A stretch of DNA of 28,617 nucleotides from a virus. Shown in pieces: positions 24,430 to 27,134 of the stretch. A program made the translations under genes and the position numbers. Where the stretch lies: positions 1-28,617 of IMG/VR virus record IMGVR_UViG_3300047557_000555; one strand, given 5' to 3'. The notes under the pieces are model-generated. The model did not search any database. It saw nothing but the letters and a program-made list of their open reading frames with translations, and was not told where the DNA came from. The first letter of the stretch is position 1. Each line of letters begins with the position of its first letter.

Positions 24430-24870
24430 TTAAAAATTCCTTTCAGATGAACTTAAATAAGATATAGCACGTTTTAATGTTTCAACATCATCATCAAAAT
24501 TGCCGAGGGCTATATTACATTTACTACAAAGCAGCCCTCTTACTTTACCTGTTTCATGACAGTGATCAATAAACATTTTCTCACGAGCAGCATTTTTGTT
24601 AGATTCAGAATCGCAAATAGCACATTTGTAATTCTGTTTTTCTAGCATGACATAATAGTCATCTACAGTTATGCCATAGGTTCTAACAATAAACGATTTC
24701 CATTTGATATGCTCTCTACAAGGTCTACACTGTCCCCTCATAGTTATGCCATTTTTGGCTTTAGAGTCACGCTCTAAATGAAATTGATCTGCTGGCTTAA
24801 ACACCCCACATGAAGTGCAATGTCTGCCGTTTTCATGTGGGTGTCCTGGGTAAAGTTTTAATGTGTCCAT
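24430..24870 (-). CDS. Endonuclease VII-type HNH endonuclease, free-standing homing-like gene
   Basis: A 146-aa protein with two zinc-binding parts. An N-terminal ribbon has C18, C21, C48 and C51 (CTSCG ... CRPC). The endonuclease VII domain has C83 and C86 (KCAIC), catalytic D102-H103 with H105 (IDHCHETGKVRGLLC), C115, C118 and N119 (CSKCN), and a following helix. This is the His-Me finger fold of T4 endonuclease VII, widespread in mobile phage genes. The ATG at 24870 is preferred to the in-frame TTG at 24873. There is no Shine-Dalgarno sequence, but an extended -10 ends six bases upstream. Its site between capsid and decoration genes, without disturbing either frame, suggests a mobile insertion. 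A junction-resolving role is the alternative. Confidence 0.88.
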   Translation of the reverse strand: MDTLKLYPGHPHENGRHCTSCGVFKPADQFHLERDSKAKNGITMRGQCRPCREHIKWKSFIVRTYGITVDDYYVMLEKQNYKCAICDSESNKNAAREKMFIDHCHETGKVRGLLCSKCNIALGNFDDDVETLKRAISYLSSSERNF

Positions 24871-24876
24871 CAAAAC

Positions 24877-24893: not shown

Positions 24894-25964
24894 TTAGGCT
24901 GCGTTATATTTAGCAGTTACAATTGCTTCGGGCCTCAAAATTTTCCTTCCGTACAGATGCATACCACGAACAATGTCAGCAAAACTGTCAGGATCACGAT
25001 AGCTTTCAGTCTTGGTGATTTGCTGTGCAGTAGCAACAGCAGCTTCATGACCAGCTACAATAACACCGTAGTTGCTGTTCTGGTTAGCAGTACCCGTGGT
25101 GCCAGGACCAGTACCAATCTTGGGAAGGTTGTTAGAAACATAAACACGGAAACCGTGGAGGTTGTTAATAACAAGACCATTCTGAAGACCAGAACCACCG
25201 AAGTCACTGTTGAGCAAACGGCTATCTTCGTCTTTAAGGATTTCAATAAAGACAGGATCGACAACCAACCAACGACCAGACGTATCAACAAACTGCTGAT
25301 CCATCAAGCGTGACATACGTGCAATAACCATCAAAGGCGATGCAGTGGCAGTGGGAAGCGAAGATGCGCCAGGAAGACGGGCAGCAAGAGGAATGGAATG
25401 ATCACCTGCAGATGCAGTAGTGATGTTACCAAAGTCACTCTTCTTAAGCTTCATCGAAGAAAGCAATTCATCCGAACCTGCAGTAGAGACTGCCTTAGTG
25501 CCGGGAGCAGTAGTACGTGCAGTATCAGCGTTAGCGTGTTTTGCAGACTGATAGAAGCCAGAGAGATAACCAAGAACGTCTTGATCATACTGGTCACGCA
25601 AGCGATAAGCTGCACGATCAGATGCCATTGCCATGAAGTTTACGTGGCTGTGAGCTGCTTCGATGTCATCAATCTTAAATGCAAAGTAGTTTGCTTGATC
25701 AACGACAAGGGTGAAGTCTTCGTCATCAAGATCTTGTGCCGTGATTTGAGTGCCACGAGCATAAGACTGAACAGAAACTTCAGGCTCTTTGATGATCTTA
25801 ACCGAGTCACCCATGTTAGCGATCTCACCAAAGTAGTCGCTGTTAGTGATGTCTTCTACGGTTGAAGATTTACGGAATGCAAGCTGTACTTGCTTGCTAT
25901 AGATTACGGGACTAAAATTCCCATTTGGCAGATTATTATAACCTGCTGCCTTTGGAAATGCCAT
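24894..25964 (-). CDS. Major capsid protein
   Basis: A 356-aa protein of the HK97-fold capsid type. It has an N-terminal segment NFSPVIYSKQVQLAFRKSST, a domain with GDSVKIIKEPEVSVQSY, and a long spine helix region (HVNFMAMASDRAAYRLRDQY). The C-terminal half carries DTSGRWLVVDPVFIEILKDE, GFRVYVSNNLPK and the late strand IVAGHEAAVATAQQITKTES, then SFADIVRGMHLYGRKILRPE. This order is the usual one in marine podovirus capsids. It follows the scaffold gene, has the best ribosome site in the late region (AGGAGG eight bases before the ATG) and its own promoter and long leader, as expected of the most abundant virion protein. Confidence 0.93.
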   Translation of the reverse strand: MAFPKAAGYNNLPNGNFSPVIYSKQVQLAFRKSSTVEDITNSDYFGEIANMGDSVKIIKEPEVSVQSYARGTQITAQDLDDEDFTLVVDQANYFAFKIDDIEAAHSHVNFMAMASDRAAYRLRDQYDQDVLGYLSGFYQSAKHANADTARTTAPGTKAVSTAGSDELLSSMKLKKSDFGNITTASAGDHSIPLAARLPGASSLPTATASPLMVIARMSRLMDQQFVDTSGRWLVVDPVFIEILKDEDSRLLNSDFGGSGLQNGLVINNLHGFRVYVSNNLPKIGTGPGTTGTANQNSNYGVIVAGHEAAVATAQQITKTESYRDPDSFADIVRGMHLYGRKILRPEAIVTAKYNAA

Positions 25965-26200
25965 GATATAACCTCCTACGGTATGTTAGGCATATATTTA
26001 TATACGCTCAACACATCACAGCAGAGGCTGAGTAGGTTAGGTGCGTTAAGTTAGGGCTGCGCTTCCCTTGCTTAATCGGGCTAACTCACCTTCAGGTAAG
26101 TCTGTCAGTATTGTTGTTGCGTTACATTGACTAATATCTACTGTCGTACTTGGTTAGGACTTACGTCGGCAAATACATTAACAGTAAATATTAGTTCACT
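25965..26200 (-). other. Untranslated leader of the capsid mRNA, about 235 nt
   Basis: No plausible gene or tRNA is visible here on either strand. The stretch lies between the promoter at 26208-26236 and the capsid ATG. It holds a 15-bp long-range stem (26130-26144 with 26181-26195) near the RNA 5' end, a smaller hairpin ACTTACC/GGTGAGT with a TGAA loop (26084-26101), and the AGGAGG ribosome site at its end. Confidence 0.6.
26130..26195 (-). promoter_or_regulatory. 15-bp stem-loop at the 5' end of the capsid mRNA
   Basis: ACTAATATCTACTGT (26130-26144) and ACAGTAAATATTAGT (26181-26195) are inverted repeats. In the - strand RNA they give 15 continuous pairs, one a G-U, around a 36-base loop. 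The first arm lies about five bases from the predicted 5' end. A terminal stem like this protects mRNA from 5'-dependent decay in other phages and bacteria; that role here is inferred. Confidence 0.6.
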
Positions 26201-26207
26201 CTACATT

Positions 26208-26236
26208 GTTATATGTAGCTATTATAAATTTGTCAA
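26208..26236 (-). promoter_or_regulatory. Sigma70-like promoter for the major capsid gene
   Basis: On the - strand a perfect TTGACA (26236-26231) is followed after 17 bases by TATAAC (26213-26208). The ATAGCTACATATAAC core (26222-26208) is identical to that of the nrdB promoter at 2431-2445. The predicted start is near 26200, downstream of the scaffold gene, so capsid mRNA can be made independently of scaffold. Confidence 0.75.
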
Positions 26237-26248
26237 GCTACCCCACGT

Positions 26249-26283
26249 ACTAACGTGCGTGAAGTACTTACTAACGTGCGTGA
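26249..26283. repeat. 14-bp direct repeat spaced by 21 bp at the scaffold stop
   Basis: ACTAACGTGCGTGA occurs at 26249-26262 and again at 26270-26283, 21 bp apart, about two helical turns. The right copy codes the last residues and stop of the scaffold gene; the left copy lies just upstream of the -35 of the capsid promoter. It could be an operator or simply a small duplication. Confidence 0.7.
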
Positions 26284-27134
26284 CCTGTCTTGTCATACAC
26301 AAACTTACCTGCACGGATAGCTGCAATAATAGCTTCTTGATTCTTTTCATATTCACGGGAAGACATCTTCTCTACCTGTGATTCATAGAACAATCCATCT
26401 TCCGATTCAAACTCGACACGAGCTTTATTAGTAGCCCTGACAGTACGTGCTGCAGCGATTGAATCATCTTTGTCTGACTGTCTGCTTCGTTTAGCAGTAA
26501 TACCCTTGTCAGCTTTGTATAAGTCGATTGCTCTAGCTGCCGATACCGCATCACTCTCATTGTCGTACAACGCACTCTGCACCCAACGAGGCTGCTTTTC
26601 AACCCATTCATGGAACTCATCCTGGTCACGAATCCTGGCAAAGTCGGGATGCAGACGCATTAGTTCTGCTTCAGCTTTCTCTTTAGCAGTCTCTTCTGCC
26701 ATTGCATTAATCTTTTGTAGCCGTGTTTCTAGTTCTTGCGATTGTTCACGTGCTTTCTTAATGGCAATTGTTTCTACAATCCTGGCTACATCTGGGTACT
26801 CATTAGCCCATGCTTCTAGCTCTTCTTCAGTCTTAGGTAGATTAATACCTTGCTTTGCTGTAGTTTCTAGTTGAACTTTTAAATCATCAATCTGCTTTTG
26901 TAATTCAACCTGTTGCTTTTGTGAATGCCTACGCAAATCACCATATCGCTTTTTAAAACTACGCTCTTCTGCACTATCTGGTTCAGGTTCATTGTCTGGA
27001 TTATTATCTTGTGGATTATTCTCCATCAACTGTTTCAGCTCTTCCTCTTCTTCTTTAATACGTTCGTGATTTGCTGAGCGTTTAATAAAACCTGCTACTT
27101 TTACTTGTTGTACTTCTTGCTGTTGATCGGACAT
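26271..27134 (-). CDS. Capsid scaffold protein
   Basis: A 287-aa highly charged helical protein directly upstream of the major capsid gene, the standard scaffold position. It opens MSDQQQEVQQVKVAGFIKR, has an acidic coil (ERIKEEEEELKQLMENN), a low-complexity asparagine/proline/aspartate linker, then long coiled coils (HSQKQQVELQKQIDDLKVQL and KAREQSQELETRLQKINAMA). It ends in a basic helical region with FVYDKTGHAR, suitable for contact with the capsid protein. This build is shared by T7-like and related scaffolds, which guide procapsid assembly and leave before packaging. AAGAGG lies about five bases before the ATG. Confidence 0.88.
   Translation of the reverse strand: MSDQQQEVQQVKVAGFIKRSANHERIKEEEEELKQLMENNPQDNNPDNEPEPDSAEERSFKKRYGDLRRHSQKQQVELQKQIDDLKVQLETTAKQGINLPKTEEELEAWANEYPDVARIVETIAIKKAREQSQELETRLQKINAMAEETAKEKAEAELMRLHPDFARIRDQDEFHEWVEKQPRWVQSALYDNESDAVSAARAIDLYKADKGITAKRSRQSDKDDSIAAARTVRATNKARVEFESEDGLFYESQVEKMSSREYEKNQEAIIAAIRAGKFVYDKTGHAR

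Follow-up and report, generated by a model that had tools for sequence, protein, structure and literature searches.

A conserved and covarying leader RNA in front of the major capsid gene of HMO-2011-type phages

The window analysed here, a whole stretch of 28,617 nucleotides that forms an IMG/VR virus record of the HMO-2011 type, carries before its main capsid gene a conserved folded RNA of about 235 bases that recurs in a large group of aquatic phages. This RNA was previously uncatalogued, and a hairpin singled out in the original prediction is its front end. Comparison among relatives establishes that the RNA is conserved and covarying, that it is linked to the capsid gene, and that a small internal loop is repeated within it. 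The RNA probably governs the timing of capsid protein production. There is, in our estimate, an even chance that the leader acts in cis as a regulatory RNA for the capsid gene, with two exclusive states set by a trans-acting factor that times or balances capsid synthesis. The pairing that would define the second state is predicted from folding, and we infer that the control is translational, which way it works, and that the ligand is a protein.

The capsid protein of the window shares 76% identity with its counterpart in Puniceispirillum phage HMO-2011 and about 75% with those of Roseobacter phages CRP-1, CRP-13, and CRP-9. Both PHROGs and Pfam identify it as a major head protein, and the gene behind the leader is therefore the capsid gene, as had been assumed. 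A gap of 306 nt separates it from the upstream gene (26271-27134), which encodes a 287-aa protein of a PHROG without assigned function, probably the scaffold as judged by its position. Directly 3' of the capsid gene lies an endonuclease VII gene (24430-24873, minus strand). The stop codon of the upstream gene and the beginning of the intergenic region are covered by a tandem repeat of 21 bp, TCACGCACGTTAGTAAGTACT (26245-26283, minus strand), whose copy number varies among near-identical phages, with two in the window, three in L002, and one each in L003 and L004. The features of the leader are as follows.

24894-25964, minus strand: major capsid protein gene, the presumed regulated gene (phrog_267 major head protein, E = 9.9e-64; PF25209 Phage_capsid_4)
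26208-26236, minus strand: predicted sigma-70-type promoter of the capsid transcript, read from the sequence; TTGACA (26236-26231), 17-nt spacer, TATAAC (26213-26208)
26130-26195, minus strand: 5'-terminal hairpin of the original prediction, outer 15-bp stem of 26195-26181 with 26144-26130 (folding)
26145-26177, minus strand: first copy of the loop motif, inside the 5' hairpin; stem UGUAUUUG/CAAGUACG, CC (26169-26168) facing CUAAC (26157-26153), inner GAC/GUC with GUAA loop
26105-26125, minus strand: linker with conserved ACGCAA(A) (alignment A1)
26022-26104, minus strand: core RNA, P1 to P4 (alignment, pairing counts, covariation, and capsid tree)
26104-26101 with 26025-26022, minus strand: core helix P1, CAGA/UCUG
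P1/P2 internal loop of the core, minus strand: CUUAC facing CC (26027-26026)
26095-26093 with 26030-26028, minus strand: core helix P2, CUG/CAG
26085-26081 with 26040-26036, minus strand: core helix P3, GUUAG/CUAAC
P3/P4 internal loop of the core, minus strand: CC (26080-26079) facing CAC (26043-26041)
P4, minus strand: core helix beginning at 26078/26044
25970-26029, minus strand: predicted alternative hairpin P5, AGCCUC (26029-26024, containing the P1 3' strand) with GAGGUU (25975-25970), overlapping the Shine-Dalgarno AGGAGG (25977-25972) (folding)

Transcription is predicted to start near 26202-26200, as estimated from the position of the promoter. A simple promoter scanner did not list the TTGACA-17-TATAAC site, since it requires T at position 6 of the -10 element. 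A site of the form TTGACA, 16 to 18 nt, and TATAAC or similar is present in 60 of the 63 distinct leaders that are free of an HNH gene. Counted from the predicted start, the leader is about 235-237 nt long, and the claim of an unusually long leader of about 235 nt holds, with about 237 nt from the predicted promoter.

The 15-bp stem exists as described. Its arms (26130-26144 and 26181-26195) are complementary as DNA at 14 of 15 positions, the fifteenth is a G-U pair in the minus-strand RNA, and 36 nt lie between them. Folding, which had been proposed as a check, gave -24.8 kcal/mol for the 66-nt hairpin against -8.2 +/- 2.2 when shuffled (z = -7.67; 0/200 shuffles as stable), and the fold of the whole leader has z = -4.77. 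The 36-nt spacing had been taken for a loop; the spacing is correct, but the loop is not open, since the interior folds into a second stem of 7 bp (GUAUUUG/CAAGUAC), an internal loop (CC/CUAAC), and a small hairpin with a 3-bp stem and a GUAA cap (GAC-GUAA-GUC). The distance of about five bases between the stem and the 5' end agrees with the TTGACA-17-TATAAC promoter, from which the start is predicted only. The 15-bp stem is invariant among the four closest leaders, and distant relatives carry hairpins of unrelated sequence at the same place with the same internal loop kept. Hence, covariation of the 5' hairpin depends on these distant hairpins, which had been selected for pairing. Four freshwater relatives (L016, L031, L036, and L052) have an extra hairpin in the first about 35 nt, ahead of the first motif copy, and some of these hairpins carry a terminator-like U tract.

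A stem lying a few nucleotides from the 5' end is the mark of a stabilising 5'-terminal hairpin, and in 55 of the 60 promoter-bearing HNH-free leaders the first predicted helix is local and lies within 10 nt of the start, on predicted starts only. This placement, together with the high stability of the hairpin in the window, speaks for a constitutive leader, in which the 5' hairpin and a compact core would guard a very abundant message against 5'-end-dependent decay and expose the ribosome site, with no switching. We regard this explanation as unlikely, since stability alone gives no reason why the CC/(N)YAC loop is kept in several places or why the P1 strand is common to the pairing of the Shine-Dalgarno. 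Rhizobium-type phages, moreover, keep the core, whereas the promoter and the 5' hairpin motif are absent from the regions searched. In a two-state leader, the 5'-terminal stem may additionally protect the message.

Of 94 loci of HMO-2011-type phages, 90 have a recognisable core immediately before the capsid gene. These loci are the window, 80 IMG/VR loci fetched by capsid protein, and 13 phage records in which a gap precedes a related capsid gene (HTVC033P, with a 31-nt gap, was not counted). Among the four loci not entered, L009 and L012 have a visible core, the same as in L008 and L011, the contig of L028 begins within the core, and in L085 (CRP-738) no core was recognised. The consensus runs from P1 (CAGA/UCUG or variants) through (N)NYAC facing CC, P2, P3 (NNUAG/CUANN), and CC facing YAC to P4. 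The apical region of P4 (26078-26044 in the window) falls by eye into two conserved classes among the relatives, GGC(A/G) and UCUAGAA.

Alignment A1 holds 48 of 55 representatives, seven near-duplicates being omitted. A gapless, loop-anchored count over these 48 sequences found pairing per position in 48, 47, and 45 for P2, in 48, 48, 45, and 44 for P3, in 44, 43, and 43 for P4, and in 43, 41, 42, and 39 for P1. With the named structure imposed on A1, 83.3% of the cells are paired and 17 of 18 pairs show changes on both sides; the covariation score is 0.534, against 0.240 for shuffled and at most 0.116 for slid controls. Compensatory changes are therefore found in several helices, as in a cis-regulatory leader RNA. 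Such changes in homologous leaders had been put forward as a check; they are clear in the core but weaker for the 15-bp stem with its invariance among close relatives. On the capsid-gene tree, the Watson-Crick states switch 0 to 13 times per pair, with a sum of 114 over 16 pairs, a total that recombination could inflate and that favours P1, whose register was taken per sequence as the better of two. RNAalifold predicted zero pairs on A1 and thus failed as an independent prediction of the core; we read this as a limit of the program with short helices and long variable inserts, because the named structure covaries strongly. The median core-constrained fold lies 6 kcal/mol above the free minimum.

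In many relatives (L007, L008, L020, L066, and L187-L240) an HNH gene is nested in the leader. All 55 HNH homologues examined, which are 59 minus four weak partial matches, sit just upstream of the capsid gene. The HNH protein has no Pfam match at 0.01, and for a related protein in a Manatee Spring phage the annotation is PacI-like HNH enzyme. A CC/CAAC loop lies inside the HNH reading frame in 49 of 55 by the scan used, and the frame reads on across the linker and enters the core; in the 16 loci listed it stops 78-125 nt short of the capsid start. Paired codon swaps in this frame, for example TTG/CAA and CTG/CAG, are synonymous on both sides. The RNA is thus kept although it is translated, since the HNH frame runs through loop, linker, and core, and an HNH gene retaining an RNA motif in frame is a natural case of dual coding. 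The nesting could also suggest a DNA-level element, such as a homing-endonuclease target or a packaging site, that forms stems by chance. This is very improbable, as the stem sequences vary freely with the pairing kept, and among the deviating cells G-U (31) is commoner than A-C (19) on the transcribed strand, a modest bias.

The most unusual feature of the leader is a single type of internal loop, CC facing (N)YAC and closed by G-C, which is common to the 5' hairpin, the P1/P2 junction, and the P3/P4 junction, and so occurs up to three times when the hairpin is counted. The two copies in the core have opposite orientation. At P1/P2 the loop ends in AC in 48/48 sequences and faces CC in 46/48, and at P3/P4 CC faces CAC or UAC in 48/48. 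A scan for stem-CC-stem-(N)YAC-stem gave one match in the window, at 26177-26145, with 0.05 expected per shuffle at the 6-bp/3-bp setting. A 5' hairpin with the loop motif is present in 39 of 61 distinct HNH-free leaders (63 minus two regions under 60 nt), against 1.7% of shuffles; the 44 loose motif matches include L081, which is apparently spurious. The scan criteria used gave no motif in the 5' part of the leaders of HMO-2011, CRP-2, CRP-207, phiM6, and N3_13.

The association of the core with one downstream gene is fixed. A DNA pattern of the core matched 91 stretches of viral contigs; among the 80 loci listed, 78 have a capsid start downstream and the other two run off the contig end. The distance from pattern to capsid start is 54-57 nt in 72 of these 78. 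With a covariance model, 21 of 22 records had a single match below E = 1e-5; the only further matches, at E of 0.05 to 1, look like chance, and nothing was found in CRP-738. In a further search with the model, CRP-603 matched at E = 6.9e-7, and weak matches in the right place were obtained for CRP-212 (E = 0.09) and a Gammaproteobacteria MAG contig (E = 0.02). Among distant capsid relatives, the model had no match in Aeromonas, Vibrio, and Pseudoalteromonas phages, two Pelagibacter phages, phage Jace, and one Rhizobium phage, where a gap of 15-58 nt precedes the capsid gene. No account of this leader was found in the literature searched, subscription papers aside, and a term search of PMC9038755 and PMC6918029 found no mention of a capsid-gene leader, promoter, or riboswitch.

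The location just after a promoter that heads the capsid and tail genes would also suit a late-operon signal that works in cis on RNA polymerase or on mRNA processing, either for antitermination, in the manner of a put site, or for cleavage, in the manner of an RNase III site. The spacing to the capsid start is, however, nearly fixed even where an HNH gene lies between promoter and core, and therefore translation is favoured and such a signal, ranked below it for this reason, seems improbable.

Comparison with Rfam 15 gave zero matches at the gathering cut-off for the whole window, three microRNA matches far below the cut-off for the leader at a relaxed threshold, and zero matches at E <= 1 for 10 relatives. 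Group I intron, tRNA-like, and ribozyme readings were dropped on sight, the capsid frame being intact and no family matching. The leader RNA may possibly have self-cleaving activity. The conserved loops and linker, and a strand that is predicted to be common to a core helix and to the Shine-Dalgarno hairpin in the layout of translational riboswitches, would suit a metabolite riboswitch whose aptamer is made or supported by the loops and whose expression platform is P1/P5. We give this little chance, for the element precedes only one structural gene among the listed matches, repeated identical small loops suit a protein array better, and no Rfam family corresponds to it.

A protein-set switch would rest on the 3' strand of P1, which is predicted to pair either with its P1 partner or with the capsid Shine-Dalgarno, the two pairings being mutually exclusive. 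In isolation, P5 of the window folds at -22.1 kcal/mol (z = -3.71). Joint folding of core and ribosome site gives a probability above 0.5 for pairing of the Shine-Dalgarno with the 3' strand of P1 in 43 of 55 leaders; the mean is 0.62, compared with 0.04 for shuffles in which the Shine-Dalgarno is preserved. The pairing is absent in HMO-2011, CRP-1, CRP-345, CRP-3, CRP-235, and L080 among the leaders folded. Local folding of the 3' hairpin yields it in 28 of 41 leaders and in 12% of shuffles, and three long 3' regions were omitted from a 3'-region comparison. P5 was judged by pairing and permutation tests, since alignment A3 is too variable for column-wise covariation. With relatedness ignored, one of 1000 permutations was as stable as the native strands of P5 and none of 1000 as those of P1, and so a single strand appears to be fitted to two partners that exclude each other. 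A helix masking the Shine-Dalgarno at the expense of a core helix, as in translational riboswitches, is predicted in the 43 of 55 leaders, native strands exceeding permuted ones, but in the window this fold depends on context. The complementarity may be partly automatic, because the core needs CC followed by UCU and ribosomes need GGAG.

Forcing the core raised Shine-Dalgarno accessibility in 29 of 48 leaders and lowered it in 9; in the window it fell from 0.70 to 0.14. Overall accessibility was not below that of shuffled leaders (0.24 against 0.26). Depending on the 3' end chosen, the partner of the Shine-Dalgarno in the window is the P1 strand, the P3 region, or the coding region. As this partner varies and core forcing lowers accessibility there, these folding results leave the reading of P1/P5 as a switch evenly poised, and the direction of the switch is less probable than the switch itself.

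The proposed course of events is as follows. Comparison among relatives shows a promoter directly after the upstream gene (putative scaffold), followed by a hairpin at the 5' terminus and by the core with its four helices stacked. According to folding, the CCUCU strand of P1 could instead pair with the capsid Shine-Dalgarno, and it is for this reason that two exclusive states are proposed. With the core folded, the ribosome site would be free and the capsid translated, and with P5 formed the site would be blocked. The choice of state would fall to a trans-acting factor, most likely a protein recognising the repeated CC/YAC loops (phage scaffold protein, capsid protein, and a host factor are candidates), and this choice would time or balance capsid synthesis. 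Of the RNA-level control or stabilisation of capsid expression originally suggested, control is well supported by a conserved covarying RNA before the capsid gene; stabilisation is possible but explains neither the CC/YAC loops nor the core. The core, the recurring loop, and the alternative Shine-Dalgarno pairing had not been noticed in the original prediction.

More tentatively, and with some doubt, the leader may represent a new class of phage RNA switch. The three loop copies would then act together as a cooperative array for sensing a virion-assembly protein or other late signal and would toggle the capsid ribosome site, and in some genomes a homing endonuclease gene, the HNH gene, would be built around the RNA and encode protein through its folded parts. 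Promoter strength, operon order, and scaffold ratios are the usual explanations for how much capsid a dsDNA phage makes. If the present reading is true, a dsDNA phage would have feedback control of its most abundant protein, and a switch-like leader would mean RNA-level control of capsid synthesis in abundant marine and freshwater phages, within reach of cultured isolates.

Among known systems, translational riboswitches with an anti-Shine-Dalgarno platform share one strand between a conserved upstream helix and a helix covering the Shine-Dalgarno, as is predicted for the leader. The present leader differs from them in carrying repeated CC/(N)YAC loops where they have a recognised aptamer, in preceding a phage structural gene, and in matching no Rfam family. 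The RNA phage MS2 has a translational operator hairpin for its coat protein, which would be the analogue should capsid or scaffold protein turn out to bind the leader; here, in contrast, the phage is a dsDNA phage with an HK97/P22-type capsid and the binder is putative. The put antiterminator of HK022 is a cis-acting structured RNA immediately after a phage promoter and resembles the leader in this position. Its sequence and fold differ, however, and the leader is fixed in spacing to the start codon and not to the promoter. The manA and wcaG motifs, structured-RNA candidates of cyanophages tied to metabolic and photosynthesis genes, are similar in being candidate RNAs of aquatic phages from comparative genomics (PMC2864571); the capsid leader, in contrast, has no match in Rfam, which holds the motifs of that paper. 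Translational operators are also found in the mRNA leaders of T4 gene 32 and gene 43, where gp32 binds a pseudoknot that lies 67 nt ahead of its own start (PMC3014915). These operators are short and serve replication proteins, whereas the capsid leader is about 235 nt long, with no pseudoknot seen and a putative binder only. The likeness is that structured RNA ahead of the start codon in a phage mRNA controls translation, as we infer for the capsid leader.
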